A stretch of 64,000 nt of DNA from NCBI RefSeq assembly GCF_007164525.1, contig NZ_AP019791.1, positions 2,839,501 through 2,903,500 of the forward strand, read 5' to 3'. The translations under genes were made by a program, and so were the position numbers. Position 1 is the stretch's first letter, and each line of letters opens with the position of its first letter. A model generated the notes under the pieces. It had not been told where the DNA came from. It worked only from the letters and a program-made list of their open reading frames with translations, and ran no database searches. This DNA comes from Rubrobacter xylanophilus (GTDB taxonomy: Bacteria > Actinomycetota > Rubrobacteria > Rubrobacterales > Rubrobacteraceae). This document shows positions 3,583 to 28,472 of the stretch, piece by piece.

Positions 3583-4533
3583 TCATCTCCAGCCCAGGGT
3601 GGCGAGGTCGAGGCGCTCCTTCTCCTCCGGGGAGAGGCTCCAGCCGAGGGCTCCGGCGTTCTGGCGGGCCTGTGAGGCGTCTTTGGCGCCGGGGATGGGG
3701 AGGGTGCCCTGGGCGAGGAGCCAGTTGAGGGCGACCTGGGCGGGGCTCTTGCCGTGGCGTTCTCCGATCTCGCGCAGGATCCCGACCACCGGCTGCACCC
3801 GGCGCAGGTTGCGCTCGCCGAAGGCCCGTCCCAGTCTGCGGACCAGTCCTGGAGGGCGGGAGCCGGGGCCGTACTTGCCGGTGAGCAGGCCCTGCGCGAG
3901 CGGGCTGTAGGCGATGAGGGTGACGTTCAGCTCCCGGCAGGCCTCGAGCGTTCCGTCGGTCTCGGGGGTTCGGTGCAGCAGGCTGTACTCCACCTGGTTT
4001 GATGCCAGGGGCACTCCGCGGGCGTCCAGGCGCTCGAAGGCCCGGCGCATCGCCTCCGCTCCGTAGTTGCTCACCCCCACGTGGCGGGCCTTGCCCTCCT
4101 TCACCGCTTCCGCCAGCGCGTCCAGCAGCCTGTCGGGGGGCGGGATCGGGGAGTACCAGTGGATCTGGTAGAGGTCCACGCTCTCCACCCCGAGTCGCCG
4201 CAGGCTGCCGTCCAGGGCGCTCAGCAGCGAGCGGGGGCTCAGCCGGTAGGGGTAGGGGGCGAACTTCGTCGCCAGCACCGGTCGGGCCGGGAGGCCGCCC
4301 TCCCGCAGGACGCTCCCGATGATCCGCTCGGACTCGCCGTTGCCGTAGATCTCGGCGGTGTCCACCAGCCGGACGCCGGCGGCGAGGCTCTCGTGGAGGG
4401 CCGCGGTGACCTCCGCCAGGCCGTAGCCTGAGCCGTAGCCCCAGAGCCTCCGGGTGCCCCAGGCCCACGCACCCACCCCCAGGGGCTCTATGCCCAGCCG
4501 GATTGCCAGCGGCGCCCGTTCGTAGCCGTTCAT
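3583..4533 (-). CDS. Aldo/keto reductase
   Basis: 316 aa, normal AKR length. The catalytic tetrad is visible as D58, Y63 (DTAEIYGNGE), K90 (ATKFAP) and H125 (YQIHWY), and the C-terminal half carries the NADPH-binding part of the TIM barrel. These cytosolic enzymes reduce aldehydes or ketones using NADPH; the substrate is not evident. The ATG at 4533 is preceded by AAAGGAAACC. It shares one base with the stop of the upstream hydrolase (TGATG), so the two are probably translated together. Confidence 0.92.
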   Translation of the reverse strand: MNGYERAPLAIRLGIEPLGVGAWAWGTRRLWGYGSGYGLAEVTAALHESLAAGVRLVDTAEIYGNGESERIIGSVLREGGLPARPVLATKFAPYPYRLSPRSLLSALDGSLRRLGVESVDLYQIHWYSPIPPPDRLLDALAEAVKEGKARHVGVSNYGAEAMRRAFERLDARGVPLASNQVEYSLLHRTPETDGTLEACRELNVTLIAYSPLAQGLLTGKYGPGSRPPGLVRRLGRAFGERNLRRVQPVVGILREIGERHGKSPAQVALNWLLAQGTLPIPGAKDASQARQNAGALGWSLSPEEKERLDLATLGWR

Positions 4534-5534
4534 CACGGTTGGTTTCCTTTCTCTGTCGGTCGCTTCCCGTTGCTTCCGGGCGCTTTGATCCTCCCGGCGG
4601 AGACGAAGTCCGCCACCTCGCGGTTGAAGTCCTCGGCCCGCTCGTCGTGGGGCAGCAGCGCTGCGTCCCGGAAGATGCGGGGGGCAGTCCGCGGGTTGTA
4701 CCGCAGGAAGGCATCGAGCTCGGCCGGGGGCGGGGTTCGGGCCTCCCGGCCCCAGCACACCATGACCCGCTGGCGGAGCTGCGTCCAGCAGGGGAGCGCC
4801 GGTTGGTTGAGCTTGCCCGCCACGAAGGCCGCCGGGAGGAATTTGGCGTTCGGTCCATGGCTCACCCGGTAGTGGTCCTCGACGATCTCCTCCGTCACCC
4901 GGGAGGGATCGTGGTAGGCCATCCGCTCCAGATAGAGCCGGATGCCCCGGTGGGAGACCAGGGCGTGGTAGAGGAGGTCGCCGAGCAGCGGCGAGACGAG
5001 CAGCCGGTAGACGGCCTCCCCGAGCCGTCCCGAGGGGCGGTCCAGGGTTCCGAGGCCGGTCGGGCAGATCAGGACCAGGCTCCTGAACAGGCGGGGGCTG
5101 CGCACCGCGGCCGGCAGCGCCAGTGCCGCCGAGAGGGAGCTGGCCACCAGGTGGGTCGGGCGCTGGATCTCTTCCCGGACGAAGTCTTCTATCTGGGAGG
5201 TCACGTCCTCCGGGGCGTAGCGCCGGCGCGGTTTCTCGGAGGCCCCGCAGCCCAGCAGATCCGGCGCGTAGACCGTGAAGTGGCGCGAGAGCGGCCCGAA
5301 GTTCCTCCGGAACTCCAGGGAGGAGGCCCCGGCGTAGATCCCGTGCACCAGGAGCAGCGGCGGGCCCTCCCCGGCCACCGAGTACGCGATCTCCCCGCCC
5401 TTCCAGCGGTAGCGCCGCCGCTCGCCCCCGAGGGCCGTTCGCGGCGGGCCGCCGCTCCGCTCCAAGTGCCGGTTCAGGGCATGGAGCGCTCCCAGCGTTC
5501 CCGCGGTGGTCAGCGCCGCCCTCATCAGCCTCAT
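4533..5534 (-). CDS. Alpha/beta-fold hydrolase with atypical nucleophile elbow
   Basis: 333 aa. The alpha/beta-hydrolase core starts near residue 46. An HG oxyanion motif lies at 64-65 and DLLGCGAS follows at 92-99. The nucleophile elbow reads A-S-S-L-S with Ser133 in place of the usual G-x-S-x-G, and a His is available in LLPHDER near the C-terminus. The first ~20 residues are hydrophobic and could be a weak membrane anchor. The likely role is an esterase or lipase-like hydrolase of unknown substrate. It is first in a two-gene unit with the aldo/keto reductase. Confidence 0.85.
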   Translation of the reverse strand: MRLMRAALTTAGTLGALHALNRHLERSGGPPRTALGGERRRYRWKGGEIAYSVAGEGPPLLLVHGIYAGASSLEFRRNFGPLSRHFTVYAPDLLGCGASEKPRRRYAPEDVTSQIEDFVREEIQRPTHLVASSLSAALALPAAVRSPRLFRSLVLICPTGLGTLDRPSGRLGEAVYRLLVSPLLGDLLYHALVSHRGIRLYLERMAYHDPSRVTEEIVEDHYRVSHGPNAKFLPAAFVAGKLNQPALPCWTQLRQRVMVCWGREARTPPPAELDAFLRYNPRTAPRIFRDAALLPHDERAEDFNREVADFVSAGRIKAPGSNGKRPTEKGNQP

Positions 5535-5595
5535 TCTCTCCCCAAGCCTCCGATCCGTCGTGCCGGTCCGCTCTTGCCCGCAGAGATCTTATATC

Positions 5596-7260
5596 CTACG
5601 CTCGCAGCCGCAGGGTGCCGGCCCTCTCGCTTTTCACCTCGACCTCGACCGGTCCCTCGCCCCGCACCACCCACACCACCCGTCGGGCGTACGCCGAGGG
5701 GAGGCCGTCGAAGAAGGCCGGGGACTTCCAGGAGCTGCCCTCCAGCGCCGAGCGTCCGGCCAGATGCCCCAGCTCCACCACCCGCTCCCCCGAGACCAGC
5801 TCGGCTCCCTCCGGCAGCTCGAGGCGCGCCTCGGGTGGTTTGGCGAGCTTTCGCTCTTCGGCCACCCGGGTCACGCTCGTGGGGAGGTAGCCGGTGTTCT
5901 CCACGATCAGCTCCAGCCGCCGCAGCCCGCCCGGGAGCGTCTTGGCCGAGAGCCGGCCGTCGAGCAGCGGTGCCGTGCGGGCGTGCGCCAGGGCGAACCG
6001 GAAGGCCCGCTCGCACTCGGCCTCGAGCAGGTGCGGCGGCGGGTTCTGGAAGGTGAACTTCGTCCGCCAGCCCCCGATCTCCACCCTCCCCAGCTGCGGG
6101 TGATCGAAGGGCCTCCACCTCTCGAAGCCCTCTCCATCCAGCTCCCGGTCGTTCCAGGCCAGTATCCGCAGCAGCGCCTCCTCCGGAGGGTCGCGGAAGA
6201 AGCCGATGAAGTCCTCGACCTTCACCCCGGCGGCCCGGGCCACCGACCAGAGCTCGATGGTGAAGGCGAAGACCCCGTAGGCGTCGTAGGCCCAGTCGTC
6301 GAAGGCTCCGCTGATGGTCTTTCTCGGATCGTAGCGAAAGCCGTGGTAGACGGAGAGGTTGGGGTAGCCGGTGAGCTCGGTACCCCGGTCACCGAGCGCC
6401 CTGTAGACGGCGAGGTCGTGGTCGGGCATCTCGAGGTCGTCCCGGTCGGAGTAGGGCCGGAGGATCGCTCCACAGAAGGTGTGGTAGGTGTGGATGCCGA
6501 AGACGTTCCTGCGCCGGAGCAGGGCCTCCACGTGGGCGCGCGACTCCGGTTCGGAGAGGGGGTAGGGGCCGGCCCCGGGCTGCTCGTGCTCGCCCTGCCA
6601 GCGGTAGGGGTACTGGCGGTTCATGTCCAGGCCGTGCAGGGGCCGGGCGATCCTGCGCTCGAACCCGTCGTAGTCCCTGAAGGTCCCCTCCCGGTAGAGC
6701 CGGTAGTAGGTGCCGCCCGTCTCGTCGGGTCTGCGCCGGACCATCAGCCGGGGATCCGTCTCCGAGACCTTCCACTCCCCGTGCTCGTCTTCCACCCGCA
6801 TGTGGAGGATCTCACCGTCACCGTCGACGTCCTCCGGGTGCAGCCCCGGTTCCTCCTCGGGCTCCGGCCACGGGCGGAGCGTGGCCCTCAGGGTGTGGGG
6901 GGTCTTCAGGTAGCGCTCGGCCCCGTCGGGGGAGAGCCTGGGGAGGACGTAGAACGCCTGCGCGTCCAAGAGCCGCCGCATCCCCGGATCGGAGGAGTAG
7001 CCCGTGAGCAGGCGGTGGATCAGGTAGAGCGCCGCCATCGAGCCGGTGACCTCCCCGGCATGGGTGTTCCCGTCCACCCAGAAGGCGGGCTTTAGGTCGG
7101 CCGGACCGGTCGCGGTGTTGGTGATCTCCGCGAGCCAGATCTCACGCCCCTCGTAGCTCCTGCCCACCTCCTCCACCCGGCACAGCTCTGGGTGCTCCCG
7201 GGCCAGACCGTGCAGCGCCGCCGTGAGCTCCGCGTGGTCCAGGTACCTGTCGAAGCGAAT
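5596..7260 (-). CDS. M14-family zinc carboxypeptidase, apparent ATT start
   Basis: 554 aa if translation begins at ATT 7260. The zinc ligands H and E sit in NTHAGE, a later HTYHTF supplies the third ligand region, and FTIELW holds the catalytic Glu typical of M14. The C-terminal ~130 residues form a beta-rich extension. The frame is open up to a TAG at 7267-7269. The only canonical in-frame start near the domain (GTG, 7176) would cut off conserved N-terminal helix residues (IRFDRYLDHAEL). A strong GGAGGT sits eight bases before the ATT. The protein is probably a metallopeptidase acting on peptides or cell-wall material; no signal peptide is visible. Confidence 0.88.
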   Translation of the reverse strand: MRFDRYLDHAELTAALHGLAREHPELCRVEEVGRSYEGREIWLAEITNTATGPADLKPAFWVDGNTHAGEVTGSMAALYLIHRLLTGYSSDPGMRRLLDAQAFYVLPRLSPDGAERYLKTPHTLRATLRPWPEPEEEPGLHPEDVDGDGEILHMRVEDEHGEWKVSETDPRLMVRRRPDETGGTYYRLYREGTFRDYDGFERRIARPLHGLDMNRQYPYRWQGEHEQPGAGPYPLSEPESRAHVEALLRRRNVFGIHTYHTFCGAILRPYSDRDDLEMPDHDLAVYRALGDRGTELTGYPNLSVYHGFRYDPRKTISGAFDDWAYDAYGVFAFTIELWSVARAAGVKVEDFIGFFRDPPEEALLRILAWNDRELDGEGFERWRPFDHPQLGRVEIGGWRTKFTFQNPPPHLLEAECERAFRFALAHARTAPLLDGRLSAKTLPGGLRRLELIVENTGYLPTSVTRVAEERKLAKPPEARLELPEGAELVSGERVVELGHLAGRSALEGSSWKSPAFFDGLPSAYARRVVWVVRGEGPVEVEVKSERAGTLRLRA

Positions 7261-7430
7261 CTTTCTCTACCTCCTTCCGTAGCGGGGCCTCCTCAAGAGG
7301 GGCATTTTAGGGGAAGCGCCGGCCGTGGGCCGCACCACAAAATATTGGGCGAAAAGTGGTAAGGTTCCCAGGTGTTGGGGGGCGGAGCGGTACCTCCTCT
7401 GGTTGTGTATCCGGGCTGTCGGGGGGGATA

Positions 7431-7436
7431 TATAAT
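7431..7436 (+). promoter_or_regulatory. -10 box (TATAAT) ahead of the PASTA kinase
   Basis: A perfect TATAAT stands in otherwise G+C-rich sequence; no good -35 box is visible at 17 bases. If it is used, transcription starts near 7443, downstream of the TTG at 7436. The kinase start would then be later: CTG 7475 behind GGAGGCGGGAGAGAG, or GTG 7496. Confidence 0.5.
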
Positions 7437-8794
7437 TGCCTGCTAGAAGGGAGGCGGCCGGAGGCGGGAGAGAGCTGGAGACCTCGGCTAAAACGGTGTT
7501 CGGGGACCGCTACGTGGTCCGCGAGAAGCTCGGCTCCGGCGGGATGGCCGTGGTCTACCGGGCCGAGGACACCCTCCTCGGCCGCGACGTCGCGATAAAG
7601 ACCCTCCACCGCCGCTACGCCGAGGTACCGGCCTTTCGCCGCCGTTTCCGGCAGGAGGCCCGGGCGATGGCCTCCCTGGACCACCAGAACATCGTCAAGG
7701 TCTACGACATCTCTCCCGACGGCGATGCGCCGTTCATCGTGGAGGAGTACGTGGGGGGGCGCGACCTCGGGAGTCTGCTGGCCCGCCAGCGCGGCGGGCG
7801 TCTGGAGGAGTCCTTCGCCGTCCGGGTCGCGGAGCAGCTGCTCAAAGCGCTCGCCTACGCGCACTGGCGGGGTGTGATCCACCGCGACATAAAGCCCTCC
7901 AACATCCTCATAACCCCCGGCGGGATCGTGAAGGTCGCGGACTTCGGCATCGCCCGGCTGGTGGAGGACGAGGGCGAGGGGGGCGGTGAGATCATCGGCA
8001 GCGCCCGCTACATGTCGCCGGAGCAGCTGCGGGGGCTGGAGGCGACCCCTCGGAGCGACCTCTACTCGGTCGGCGTCCTGCTCTACCACTGCCTCACCGG
8101 CCGCCCGCCGTTCACGGGTGACGTAAAGAGCCTCGCCCGGCAGCACCTCGGGGAGGTGCCGCGACCGCCGCGGGAGCTGAACCGGGGCCTCTCCCCCCAG
8201 ATGGAGGCGGTGATCCTCCGGGCGATGGCCAAGGACCCCGAGGACCGCTACCCCTCGGCCACGGCGATGCTCGACGAGATCCAGGAGGGGGTCCGCCACA
8301 GGGCCCGCTCCGGCACCCGGGAGATGCCCCGGAGGCGGACGAGGCGCGGGAGGCTCGCCCTGGTCTCCACGCTCGCCGTTCTTTTGCTCGGCGGGGGGAC
8401 GGCGGTAGGGGCCTCTGGGCTGGCCGGATACGTGGACCTCTCACCGCGCTCCAGCGTGCAGCAGCCGGTCGTGGGGGCTGCGGAGCCGCTGCGCTCCGCC
8501 CCACCCGGTATCCCCGAGACCTCCCGGGAGGAGGCCGCCCGGAACGCGCCGCTCGTCCCGGTCCCCGACGTCCGCCCGTACTTCGACTACTCGGCGCGCG
8601 AGATACTCGTCAACCGTGGCTTCAAGGTGCGCATCGTCTACGCCTACCGGGAGGGCTACGCCAACCGGGGGGTCGCCTGGGGCACCGACCCGCCCGCAGG
8701 GACGCTCGTTCCGGCGGGGTCCACCGTGACGGTCTACTCGACGCCGAAGGATCTCTACCAGCCCCAGATACGCACCACCGGGGCCTCGCCGTAG
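7436..8794 (+). CDS. Membrane Ser/Thr protein kinase with one PASTA domain
   Basis: Up to 452 aa. The Hanks-type kinase domain begins at ~24. It has glycine loop LGSGGMAVV, VAIK lysine ~55, catalytic HRDIKPSN ~150, DFG and the MSPEQ substrate-recognition segment, so it looks active. A basic linker leads to one transmembrane helix (~305-325), and a single extracellular PASTA repeat (VPDVRPYFD to VTVYSTP) follows at ~365-435. The PknB family uses PASTA domains to sense muropeptides or lipid II and to control division and cell-wall synthesis; most members carry several repeats, here only one. The start is unresolved: TTG 7436 overlaps the -10 box. Confidence 0.93.
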   Translation: MPARREAAGGGRELETSAKTVFGDRYVVREKLGSGGMAVVYRAEDTLLGRDVAIKTLHRRYAEVPAFRRRFRQEARAMASLDHQNIVKVYDISPDGDAPFIVEEYVGGRDLGSLLARQRGGRLEESFAVRVAEQLLKALAYAHWRGVIHRDIKPSNILITPGGIVKVADFGIARLVEDEGEGGGEIIGSARYMSPEQLRGLEATPRSDLYSVGVLLYHCLTGRPPFTGDVKSLARQHLGEVPRPPRELNRGLSPQMEAVILRAMAKDPEDRYPSATAMLDEIQEGVRHRARSGTREMPRRRTRRGRLALVSTLAVLLLGGGTAVGASGLAGYVDLSPRSSVQQPVVGAAEPLRSAPPGIPETSREEAARNAPLVPVPDVRPYFDYSAREILVNRGFKVRIVYAYREGYANRGVAWGTDPPAGTLVPAGSTVTVYSTPKDLYQPQIRTTGASP

Positions 8795-25337: not shown

Positions 25338-26567
25338 CTACCGGCGGGTCTCCCGGAGGAGCAGGGCGAGCGGGCCCACCGAGGCCAGCTCCAGCGCAAC
25401 GGAGAAGGCGGCGGCGTAGCCGGGCTCGGCCTCGTACAGAGCCCCCATCGCCGAGCTCCCGGCGAACCAGCAGAGGCCGTAGACGGCGTTGAAGAGGCCG
25501 TAGGCCGTCCCGCGCACGGCGGCCGGGACCATACCGCCCACCGCGGCCCGCATGATGGTCTCCTGTACCCCCATCACCGCGCCCCACAGCAGCACCCCGC
25601 CCAGGGCCGCCGCCGCGCTGCCGGAGAACGCCAGGGGCGCCACGGGCAGGGTGAGCAGGGGCACCGAGGCCAGCACCGTGAGCCCCAGCCGGTCGAAGAG
25701 CCGCCCCGAAAGGAGCGCGACCAGCGCGTCCACCCCCATGGCGGCGGCGAAGGCGAGGGGGATGCCGGCGCCCGGGAGCAACCCGGTGGTCTCGAGGTGG
25801 TAGGAGACGAGCTGGAAGCTGGCGAAGCCCCCCACCCCGAAGACGACGAACGCCATGTACAGCCAGAAGGCGCGCGGCAGCCCTCCCTCCTGCTCCCGTC
25901 CCTCCCGCCCCGCCTCCAGCCGCCCGGGGTCGGGGTAGAGGCGGCGGGAGAGGGCGAGCGTCGCGAGGGAGAGGGCGGCCGGGACCGCCAGGATGGCGAA
26001 GCCCGTCCGGTAGCCGCCCGCCAGGTACAGCACCGCCGCGACGGCCAGCGGCCCGGCGACCGCCCCCAGCTGGTCGAGCGCCTCGTGCAGCCCGAAGGCC
26101 CACCCGCGGCCCATCCGGGATCCCGCGTGGGAGAGCATCGCGTCGCGGGCGGGGCCCCGGATCGCCCGGCCCGAGCGCTCGGCGACCATGAGCGCGGAGG
26201 CGAGCTGCCAGCTCCCGACGAGCGCGAGCAGCGGGACGGCGGCGAGGTTCAGGACGTAGCCGAAGATGGTGATCGCCCAGAACCTCCCGGTTCGGTCGCC
26301 CAGGTAGCCGGAGACGGCCCGGAGGGCGTATCCCGCGAACTCCCCGAGCCCCGCGACGAAGCCGGTCGCCGCGGCCCCCGCTCCCAGGGAGGCGAGGAAG
26401 GGGCCGGTGATGCTCCGGGCCCCCTCGTAGGTGGCGTCGGCCAGGAGGTCGACCACGCCGAGCAGCACCACGAAGCGCAAGGCGGCGCGGTTTCGACTGC
26501 TTTCTCTTCCGGGCGTGCCTCTCACCCCCTCCGGAAGAATTCTCCTCTCGCAGGCCGCGCGCCTCAA
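25338..26567 (-). CDS. MFS transporter at the end of the fluoride operon
   Basis: 409 aa, about 12 hydrophobic helices. The signature loop between helices 2 and 3 reads GYLGDRTGRFWA. The TTG start at 26567 forms a TTGA overlap with the stop of the upstream DUF190 gene, the same coupling as the rest of the operon. That suggests the gene is co-transcribed from the fluoride riboswitch. No Shine-Dalgarno is seen, so it would depend on coupling. The substrate is unknown; a fluoride or proton-linked role is only a guess from position. Confidence 0.82.
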   Translation of the reverse strand: MRRAACERRILPEGVRGTPGRESSRNRAALRFVVLLGVVDLLADATYEGARSITGPFLASLGAGAAATGFVAGLGEFAGYALRAVSGYLGDRTGRFWAITIFGYVLNLAAVPLLALVGSWQLASALMVAERSGRAIRGPARDAMLSHAGSRMGRGWAFGLHEALDQLGAVAGPLAVAAVLYLAGGYRTGFAILAVPAALSLATLALSRRLYPDPGRLEAGREGREQEGGLPRAFWLYMAFVVFGVGGFASFQLVSYHLETTGLLPGAGIPLAFAAAMGVDALVALLSGRLFDRLGLTVLASVPLLTLPVAPLAFSGSAAAALGGVLLWGAVMGVQETIMRAAVGGMVPAAVRGTAYGLFNAVYGLCWFAGSSAMGALYEAEPGYAAAFSVALELASVGPLALLLRETRR

Positions 26568-26893
26568 GCCCCGTCTGGTGGGAGGAGCGCGACCTCCGAG
26601 AGGGTGATGAGCCCACGGGGGAGCGCGGCGCGCACCCGGGGGAGGGCGGCCTCCACCCGCGCGCGCTCCCCGGTGGCCTCGACCACCACCGGCAGGTCGG
26701 GGTGAAAGCGCAGCGGCCGGGCGGAGAGCAGCCCCGAGGAGCGGTCGAAGCCGAGGATGCCCCGGTGTATGGAGACGTCTACGACCCTCGCCTCCCGGAA
26801 GGCCTCCGCGATGACCTCGTAGGCGGGACGGTCCCCCGCACGCGCGGAGTCGCGGAGGTAGACCCTGGCCCGCACCGCGGACCCCGCGTTCAC
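26564..26893 (-). CDS. DUF190 protein (second copy)
   Basis: 109 aa with a ferredoxin-like PII-type fold: VRARVYLRDSARAGDRPAYEVIAEAF at the start, then VDVSIHRGILGFDRSSG and LPVVVEATG. DUF190 genes usually accompany crcB and are thought to tune the channel, but the activity is unproven. The RGRPLYE-type loop of the first copy reads AGDRPAYE here, so the two copies have diverged. GTG start within a GTGA overlap. Confidence 0.88.
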   Translation of the reverse strand: MNAGSAVRARVYLRDSARAGDRPAYEVIAEAFREARVVDVSIHRGILGFDRSSGLLSARPLRFHPDLPVVVEATGERARVEAALPRVRAALPRGLITLSEVALLPPDGA

Positions 26894-27222
26894 CGCTCCT
26901 CCCCGGGGAGCACCTGCTCGGCGAGCACCTCCGAGCGGATGACGAGCCCCTCCCGCACCGCCCGCCGCACGAAGGGGAGGAAGGCTTCGATCTTCTCCGC
27001 CTCGTCCACGAGGTCCACTACCACCGGCAGGTTCTCCGCCAGACGCAGGATGCCCGCGGAGGCGATGTCCGCGTGCGGGGCGTAGCCCATGAACCCCTTG
27101 AAGACGGTGGCCCCGGCGAGCCCCCGCTCCCGGGCGGCGAGCACCAGGGCCTCGAAGAGCGGGCGTCCCCTGTAGCGCTCGTCCTCGCCGATGAGGATGC
27201 GCAGCCGGACCGCGGGCCTCAT
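26890..27222 (-). CDS. DUF190 protein (first copy)
   Basis: 110 aa. It has a DUF190 core with VRLRILIGEDERYRGRPLFE, ATVFKGFMGYAPHADI and LPVVVDLVDE. The fold resembles PII signalling proteins, and such genes cluster with crcB. The start ATG overlaps the stop of the upstream crcB gene (ATGA), so it is translated with the channel. Confidence 0.9.
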   Translation of the reverse strand: MRPAVRLRILIGEDERYRGRPLFEALVLAARERGLAGATVFKGFMGYAPHADIASAGILRLAENLPVVVDLVDEAEKIEAFLPFVRRAVREGLVIRSEVLAEQVLPGEER

Positions 27223-27593
27223 CCCGCCACTCCCGCCCCCGCTGACGCGCCCAAGGAGAAGGCGAAGAGCCCGAGCGCCAGGCTGCCGACGACGTTGAAG
27301 AAGGCCCGGTCGCGCTCCCCGGAGGCGGCCAGGTTGATCGTCTCCAGCATGAGCGTGGAGAAGGTGGTGAACCCGCCGAGCAGCCCGCTCCCGAGCACGA
27401 GGAGCAGCGTCCTCTCGTGCGGGGCCGCCCCCTGCAGCAGGCCGAGCCCGAGGCAGCCGAGCACGTTGACCGCCAGCGTGCCCCAGGGGAACTCCGGTCC
27501 CATCCGGTGCCCCACCCAGCCGCCGAGGAGGTATCGGAGAACCGAACCTGCCCCGGCACCGACGAGGGTGAGGGCGAGCTCCACGTGCGACAC
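27219..27593 (-). CDS. crcB: Fluoride channel subunit CrcB/Fluc
   Basis: 124 aa with four transmembrane helices. GAGAGSVLRYLLGG, PWGTLAVNVLGCLGLG (pore Asn) and GLLGGFTTFSTLMLE (sodium site and Phe box) are the Fluc signatures. Fluc channels let F- leave the cell down its gradient. It starts at GTG 27593, sharing a base with the stop of the fused CrcB upstream (TAGTG). The two unequal subunits may form a heterodimer. Confidence 0.95.
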   Translation of the reverse strand: MSHVELALTLVGAGAGSVLRYLLGGWVGHRMGPEFPWGTLAVNVLGCLGLGLLQGAAPHERTLLLVLGSGLLGGFTTFSTLMLETINLAASGERDRAFFNVVGSLALGLFAFSLGASAGAGVAG

Positions 27594-28270
27594 TAGAGGA
27601 ACCTCCGGGAGATCCAGAAGCCCCCGAAGGCCGCGAGCAGCCCGAACAGGATGCTGCCGCCGCCATAGAGCCCGCCGAGCAGCGGTGAGGCCTCCCAGCC
27701 GCGCATGGTGTGCAGGGCATAGGAGCTGAAGGTGGTGAGCGACCCCAGAAAACCCAGTACCCAGAACGTCCGTGCCCGCTCGCCGACGAACCGCTCGAAG
27801 ATGAGGGTGCCGAAGATCGCTATGAAAAAGGAGCCGACCACGTTGGCCGCAAGGGTGCCCCAGGGAAATACGCCGTAGGCTTCGGGGGTGATCTGACGGG
27901 CGGTCTCCTCCGCCGCCAGCCGCGTCCCGGCCCCCAGTGCTCCCCCGGCGAAGACCCACCCGAGATTCTCGAGCCCGGCGCGGAAGGGCCGGGAGCGCAG
28001 GGCGGCACCCCGCAGGAAGCCCTCCGGGGCTTCGTGCACCACCGCCTCGCGGGATACCGAGATGCTCGCCCCCGGTAGAAGCCCCCGCAGCTCCTGGAGC
28101 ACCTTCGCCAGAACCTCCTCCTCGTCGATCAGCATGAGGAAGACGTGGTGCGCCGCCTTCGTCTCGGGCCCCCGGTAGGCCGTTGCCGAGGCCACGCCCC
28201 GCCGGTGGGCCAGGCGCACCGCCCGCTCACAATCGAGCTCCGAGCTCAGCCTGACCGTCGCCTGAGCCAC
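27593..28270 (-). CDS. crcB: Fused DUF190-like sensor domain and CrcB/Fluc fluoride channel
   Basis: 225 aa from GTG 28270. Residues ~1-75 form a small alpha/beta domain resembling DUF190/PII (ATVRLSSELDCERAV, RRGVASATAYRG, HHVFLMLIDEEEVL). Residues ~100-225 are a complete CrcB channel: GGALGAGTRLAAEE, PWGTLAANVVGSF and GFLGSLTTFSSYALH. Family CrcB proteins are ~125 aa, so this is a true N-terminal fusion. The start is uncertain: TTG 28288 is also possible, and earlier codons fall in the terminator. First gene after the fluoride riboswitch. Confidence 0.88.
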   Translation of the reverse strand: MAQATVRLSSELDCERAVRLAHRRGVASATAYRGPETKAAHHVFLMLIDEEEVLAKVLQELRGLLPGASISVSREAVVHEAPEGFLRGAALRSRPFRAGLENLGWVFAGGALGAGTRLAAEETARQITPEAYGVFPWGTLAANVVGSFFIAIFGTLIFERFVGERARTFWVLGFLGSLTTFSSYALHTMRGWEASPLLGGLYGGGSILFGLLAAFGGFWISRRFL

Positions 28271-28326
28271 CGTCCGCTCTGTTCCCAACCCTCTCTCGAC
28301 CCCCTGCGGTGTCCCGTTGACGCAAC

Positions 28327-28363
28327 AAAAAAGCCTCCGCCCGCGCACCCGGGGGGTGCGGGA
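28327..28363 (-). terminator. Riboswitch expression-platform terminator
   Basis: Just after the aptamer, a G+C-rich hairpin (CCCGCACCC paired with GGGTGCGCGGG) is followed on the minus strand by six T residues. It is an intrinsic terminator expected to form when no fluoride is bound. Confidence 0.8.
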
Positions 28364-28429
28364 CAGAAGCCATCAGCGCCGCCGGCGCGGTTCTCCGGAG
28401 AATCTCCCGGAAGGCGGGCCTCATCGCCC
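28364..28429 (-). ncRNA. Fluoride riboswitch aptamer (crcB RNA motif)
   Basis: The minus strand begins GGGCGATGAGGCCCGCC and ends GCTGATGGCTTCTG, with a variable G+C-rich helix between. These are the two conserved blocks of the crcB motif and match the Thermotoga petrophila aptamer almost base for base. It stands between the promoter and a terminator in front of two crcB genes. Fluoride binding should stabilise the aptamer, block terminator formation and switch the operon on. Confidence 0.95.
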
Positions 28430-28443
28430 TGCTCGTAACGCGG

Positions 28444-28472
28444 ACTTTACGACGTGTGGCGAGGCATTGCAA
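28444..28472 (-). promoter_or_regulatory. Promoter of the fluoride operon
   Basis: On the minus strand TTGCAA and TAAAGT are separated by 17 bases, and the -10 box ends 14 bases before the aptamer. The spacing and position suit a vegetative sigma factor. Confidence 0.6.

Follow-up and report, generated by a model that had tools for sequence, protein, structure and literature searches.

In the operon of Rubrobacter xylanophilus described here, one of three DUF190-type domains is borne by the fluoride channel itself. The operon suggests, short of proof, a dedicated three-part protein control of this channel. We give about an even chance to the reading that it is a fluoride-induced two-gene Fluc operon with a dedicated, channel-tethered PII-like regulator of three domains: the N-terminal domain (NTD) of the first Fluc subunit, CrcB1, and the DUF190 proteins D1 and D2. 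Flucs are treated as always-open channels, and we know of no function assigned to DUF190. The operon and its leader all lie on the minus strand of the 64,000-nucleotide stretch analyzed (the window), which is part of a 3.02 Mb genome on a single contig.

From 5' to 3', the fluoride aptamer and terminator are followed by the NTD-fused CrcB1, CrcB2, D1, D2 and an MFS transporter (Table 1). The CrcB1 stop codon (27593-27595) lies in a TAGTG junction that overlaps CrcB2 by one base, while the CrcB2/D1 (ATGA), D1/D2 (GTGA) and D2/MFS (TTGA) junctions each overlap by four bases. A sequence-only reading of this DNA had described a fluoride operon with two unequal CrcB proteins followed by two DUF190 proteins with overlaps of 1-4 bases; the domain scores, CrcB clades, charge bias and junctions bear this out for these four genes, and the coupled MFS transporter had been missed.

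Table 1. Features of the fluoride operon in window coordinates.
Feature	Description	Coordinates	Strand	Evidence
Aptamer	Fluoride riboswitch RF01734	28357..28437	(-)	cmscan 35.1 bits (gathering score 34); leader kept in three relatives
Intrinsic terminator	18-pair hairpin + T6, expression platform	28327..28371	(-)	Fold
CrcB1	NTD::CrcB fusion, first Fluc subunit	27593..28288	(-)	Start TTG 28288 or GTG 28270
NTD	Degenerate DUF190-type domain, predicted PII fold	28007..28270	(-)	hhalign, AF2, VIA Z
CrcB domain of CrcB1	Predicted N-in	27596..27973	(-)	PF02537 66 bits (cut-off 32.9), charge bias
CrcB2	Second Fluc subunit, predicted N-out	27219..27593	(-)	PF02537 87 bits (cut-off 32.9), tree, charge bias
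D1	DUF190 protein, 110 aa	26890..27222	(-)	PF02641 109 bits (cut-off 23.4)
D2	Divergent DUF190 protein, 109 aa	26564..26893	(-)	PF02641 73 bits (cut-off 23.4)
MFS transporter		25338..26567	(-)	PF07690 85 bits

In switches of the RF01734 class, the fluoride-bound aptamer blocks the terminator and transcription proceeds. The present leader, on the pattern of its sequence, is of this usual transcriptional type. It carries the only fluoride aptamer in the genome, upstream of CrcB1, and the 5' arm (from 28371) of an 18-pair hairpin (28371-28333, followed by T6 at 28332-28327) shares bases with the aptamer 3' end, so that sequence and fold predict a mutually exclusive platform. An aptamer with an overlapping terminator ahead of crcB is what other crcB-motif switches have as well; the only oddity here is a 17-nt insert in the variable loop. 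The placement of aptamer and terminator before the fused CrcB had been read correctly, but the description of the aptamer as near-consensus holds for its core and not overall, as with this insert the match is only a marginal pass of the gathering score. The leader is recognizable, with its aptamer/terminator arrangement preserved, in the relatives G026, G195 and G087, and no aptamer was detected upstream of the G259 or G041 fusion operon or of the second G141 operon.

CrcB1 and CrcB2 are the only CrcB genes in the genome and hence encode its sole Fluc. In a CrcB tree, the fused CrcB1 proteins group with the “first” and the CrcB2 proteins with the “second” subunits of other two-gene Flucs, and the Arg+Lys charge bias predicts N-in for CrcB1 (7/7) and N-out for CrcB2 (7/7). 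Thus, the predicted Fluc would be an antiparallel heterodimer of oppositely inserted subunits. This agrees with the finding that two-gene Flucs are obligate antiparallel heterodimers (PMC11139923). The adjacent CrcB pair, the first and second clades and the opposite charge bias are shared with these channels (PMC11139923), whereas the present operon adds a PII-fold domain to one subunit and further comprises two DUF190 genes and one MFS gene in translational coupling. Together with its subunit class, the N-in charge bias of CrcB1 would put the NTD on the cytoplasmic side of the membrane.

The NTD comprises ~90 extra residues ahead of the CrcB domain. Against PF02641 it scores 14.9-18.6 bits, below the Pfam cut-off of 23.4. 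A profile of nine NTD sequences, however, aligned by hhalign to a profile of 80 DUF190 domains with a probability of 96.5 and a score of 54.7, compared to 17.8 for the best of 60 column shuffles and <13 for controls with reversed alignments and CrcB, which rules out a chance resemblance. Searching PDB sequences with the NTD profile returned nothing significant. The AF2 model of the fusion, which is confident over the NTD only, shows a beta-alpha-beta-beta-alpha-beta arrangement in residues 11-90 (block pLDDT about 67-92), and this model matched CutA, CPII, SbtB, TTHA0516 and the DUF190 protein PH1503 at VIA Z about 10-12. The modeled NTD is therefore a PII-superfamily fold of the PII/CutA type, although a shared fold by itself shows no function, and its profile match makes it a divergent DUF190 relative. 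These comparisons uphold the earlier assignment of an N-terminal PII/DUF190-like domain. Within DUF190/UPF0166/COG1993 (PF02641; PDB 2dcl, 1o51), D1 and D2 are members, while the NTD alone is channel-fused, loop-less and below the Pfam cut-off.

The NTD is conserved in six other genomes, and pN was lower than pS in 21/21 pairs of seven NTD sequences (dN/dS 0.20-0.79), indicating that it is translated and under purifying selection. This rules out a start of translation downstream of the NTD, one of the outcomes on which the sequence-only reading would have fallen. All nine NTDs lack a stretch of 15-16 residues between strands 2 and 3 that is found in the 38 single-gene DUF190s used for comparison. 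The missing stretch is the site of the conserved DUF190 residues H, T, L, L, S, D and L, and the NTDs are also without the conserved G-E pair of DUF190 strand 1; G34, A36, A38 and D73 are retained, as is G43 in nearly all sequences. Mapped by topology, not from a solved complex, this stretch would be the DUF190 equivalent of the T-loop. In the SbtB-SbtA and GlnK-AmtB systems, the PII-type T-loop docks into the partner transporter (PMC8352866). Because the loop stretch and conserved residues are missing, the NTD is unlikely to be a free-standing sensor; for the domain taken alone, a role as tether or as third subunit is more probable.

D1 and D2 are the only DUF190 genes over threshold in the genome. 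D1 keeps most of the conserved DUF190 residues, yet in both proteins several positions conserved among single DUF190s are different, making ligand binding unsure. The AF2 model of D1 was of low confidence. Among 39 genomes of the Rubrobacteraceae, mostly drafts, the NTD is present in seven, and every one of these has both D1 and D2 (7/7), one of them in two such operons. Each of 12 other genomes has a single DUF190 gene and lacks the NTD, and 20 genomes have neither. The association of the NTD with D1 plus D2 is significant by Fisher's test when kinship is ignored (p = 2e-5). Genera g3, g8 and g10 hold both the NTD+D1+D2 and the single-DUF190 type, indicating either repeated gain or loss of the set as a whole, or its movement.

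Individual relatives vary this arrangement. In the second operon of G141, D1 and D2 form a single ORF; in G026, an IS630-like insertion splits D2 with the remainder of the operon intact, so that D2 may be dispensable there. In G087, the NTD and CrcB are in different frames and the CrcB is a CrcB1/CrcB2 chimera, and this genome was excluded from the clean cases. The fusion is in one clean frame in six genomes, with two copies in one, which rules out an assembly artefact. A contig scan with the single protein as query gave no match, while the same scan with an alignment as query recovered three relatives with the same fusion. A search of 396 genomes of the phylum gave no match outside the family that spans the NTD without a stop codon.

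DUF190 is linked to CrcB well beyond this family. CrcB lies within 1.5 kb in 30/30 of the top 30 DUF190 loci of the phylum, on the same strand in 29/30. Among annotated plasmid records, crcB is directly beside DUF190 in 7/11, the seven spanning Pseudomonadota, Bacteroidota, Cyanobacteriota, Actinomycetota and Deinococcota; some DUF190 genes in these records adjoin heavy-metal efflux genes instead. This proximity and the all-or-none NTD+D1+D2 set both favor the DUF190-channel link that the sequence-only reading had suggested. In eight other actinobacterial genomes, three DUF190 domains are encoded in one ORF, which in 6/8 directly follows a CrcB-CrcB pair; the triple DUF190s of two mycobacteria lack a CrcB gene within some 3.4 kb. 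WP_083134750.1 is an example of such a triple chain. The three positions (T1, T2 and T3) form separate well-supported clades, and this, together with their CrcB-CrcB adjacency, indicates that the combination of a two-gene Fluc with three unequal DUF190 domains recurs. Descent of the NTD, D1 and D2 from such triples was unsupported, the domain trees being unresolved and carrying a long-branch warning. Most DUF190 loci found have one DUF190 gene, possibly forming a homotrimer, and a heterotrimer is thus no general requirement.

The MFS protein is 52% identical to an MFS adjoining crcB-DUF190 in Chroococcidiopsis, 52% identical to the G087 MFS downstream of a fluoride aptamer, and 48% identical to a Mycobacterium branderi MFS beside a triple DUF190, near an enolase gene. 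As a recurrent neighbor of CrcB/DUF190 operons, it is likely a third partner in the fluoride response.

We propose that fluoride binding to the aptamer would prevent terminator formation and permit transcription of the operon, a step that here rests on sequence and fold only. From charge bias and subfamily, the N-terminus of CrcB1 would lie in the cytoplasm, with CrcB2 inserted in the reverse orientation. The NTD, D1 and D2, as three non-equivalent DUF190-type domains, may then form one PII-like (pseudo)trimer that the NTD would tether to the cytoplasmic face of the channel; the all-or-none co-occurrence and the fusions in relatives point to both the trimer and the tethering. The loop-less NTD would be a structural anchor, while D1, and perhaps D2, would bear the loop and ligand site and, by analogy with GlnK-AmtB and SbtB-SbtA, act as a removable plug in the cytoplasmic vestibule. 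Such a gate could plausibly serve to keep fluoride from leaking in when the membrane potential falls, in which case the ligand would, speculatively, be an adenine nucleotide or other energy signal. We infer the NTD-D1-D2 assembly, channel plugging and any ligand, and treat all three as putative throughout. In SbtB-SbtA and GlnK-AmtB, PII-fold proteins are likewise encoded beside the transporter and dock at its cytoplasmic face (PMC8352866), but a trimer binds a trimer there, whereas here the target would be an antiparallel dimer, with covalent fusion of one PII-type domain to the channel. More tentatively, and at somewhat below an even chance, three unequal PII-type domains, one of them channel-fused, may ligand-gate the Fluc heterodimer, with DUF190 being in general a cytoplasmic regulator of Flucs.

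Other explanations place the function of these domains elsewhere. The NTD could be a topology or assembly device that fixes CrcB1 as N-in and either stabilizes the heterodimer or holds D1 and D2, without controlling flux. A cytoplasmic domain agrees with the charge bias that predicts CrcB1 to be N-in, and the loss of the functional loop residues from the NTD is also as this explanation would have it. However, related two-gene Flucs show the same charge asymmetry with no NTD, and a topology device is thus not needed; we consider this explanation unlikely. DUF190 might instead act off the channel, in CutA-like binding of nucleotides, metals or fluoride-metal species, the NTD being a decayed chance fusion; the disturbance of Mg2+ and ATP chemistry by fluoride would then explain DUF190 co-expression. 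The fit of the NTD model to CutA, at least as good as to DUF190 structures, and the DUF190 genes beside heavy-metal efflux genes are consistent with such a role. Purifying selection on the NTD in seven genomes, the all-or-none set and the very tight linkage of DUF190 to CrcB argue against it, making it quite improbable.

The sequence-only reading had seen in the fused domain a sensor on one subunit of the Fluc pair. In this explanation, the NTD would bind the ligand and gate its own Fluc subunit, with D1 and D2 as separate proteins. A PII-type fold under purifying selection at the N-terminus of a channel subunit is what it would predict. Yet the NTD is without the loop, the conserved His/Thr/Ser/Asp and the G-E positions of DUF190, and within the family it is always accompanied by D1 and D2. 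Moreover, a PII-type site is usually located between subunits, as in SbtB (PMC8352866). The sensor claim is therefore not sustained, and we regard it as very unlikely. Our preferred reading remains the channel-tethered regulator assembled from the NTD, D1 and D2.

A 2024 review noted that regulation at the protein level could keep fluoride from entering the cell on failure of the membrane potential, with no natural mechanism identified (PMC11139923), and reference titles within that review indicate that synthetic monobodies can occlude the Fluc channel. A literature search for DUF190/COG1993 with CrcB or fluoride, lacking most subscription journals, returned nothing relevant. The fusion to a Fluc subunit, the all-or-none co-inheritance and the triple-DUF190 chains beside two-gene Flucs now provide a concrete, testable link between DUF190 and Flucs. 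If true, the proposed assembly would be a naturally occurring case of a fluoride channel controlled at the protein level.

The operon is altered in one relative carrying the degenerate DUF190-type N-terminal domain (NTD) of CrcB1, and apparently in a second. In the nearest (genome G026, locus L033), CrcB1, CrcB2 and D1 are intact despite an IS630-like insertion, with ORFs bearing DDE_3 and HTH domains, that interrupts the D2 gene. In G087 (contig C43, locus L039), CrcB1 and CrcB2 have apparently merged into a single chimeric CrcB with a junction near the FPWGTL..N motif common to both, and the NTD lies 5' of it in a different frame, an arrangement that reflects either a deletion and frameshift or an assembly error.

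Coordinates of features, within each locus or the window
Locus	Feature	Position	Strand	Remark
Window	MFS transporter	25338-26567	(-)	TTGA overlap couples gene to D2
L033	Insertion in D2	~3971-5128		
L039	Chimeric CrcB	4990-5699		
L040	Two fluoride aptamers	4277-8379		Within ~4 kb
L087	Fluoride aptamer	5452-5514		

Fluoride aptamers also occur at other loci. On contig C39 of G087 (L040), one precedes genes for a sulfatase-like protein and an MFS protein together with a free-standing NTD-like ORF, and the other precedes hydrogenase-4/NuoH-like membrane subunits. The L087 aptamer lies ~0.5 kb 3' of a CrcB-CrcB-triple-DUF190 operon, upstream of another gene.

In Phenylobacterium, Granulicella and Chondrocystis (L101, L102 and L106), DUF190 adjoins genes for heavy-metal efflux, of the RND or P-type ATPase kind, and not crcB; this neighbourhood is a second DUF190 context. 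Mycobacterium branderi plasmid pJCM12687 (L105) carries adjacent genes for a proton-pump subunit, enolase, a triple DUF190 (one chain of 359 aa) and an MFS protein, a cluster that forms a putative fluoride-resistance island.

In Chroococcidiopsis, M. branderi and G087, the window MFS transporter has close homologues whose genes adjoin either CrcB/DUF190 genes or a fluoride aptamer. The window protein is a candidate new fluoride-response transporter.
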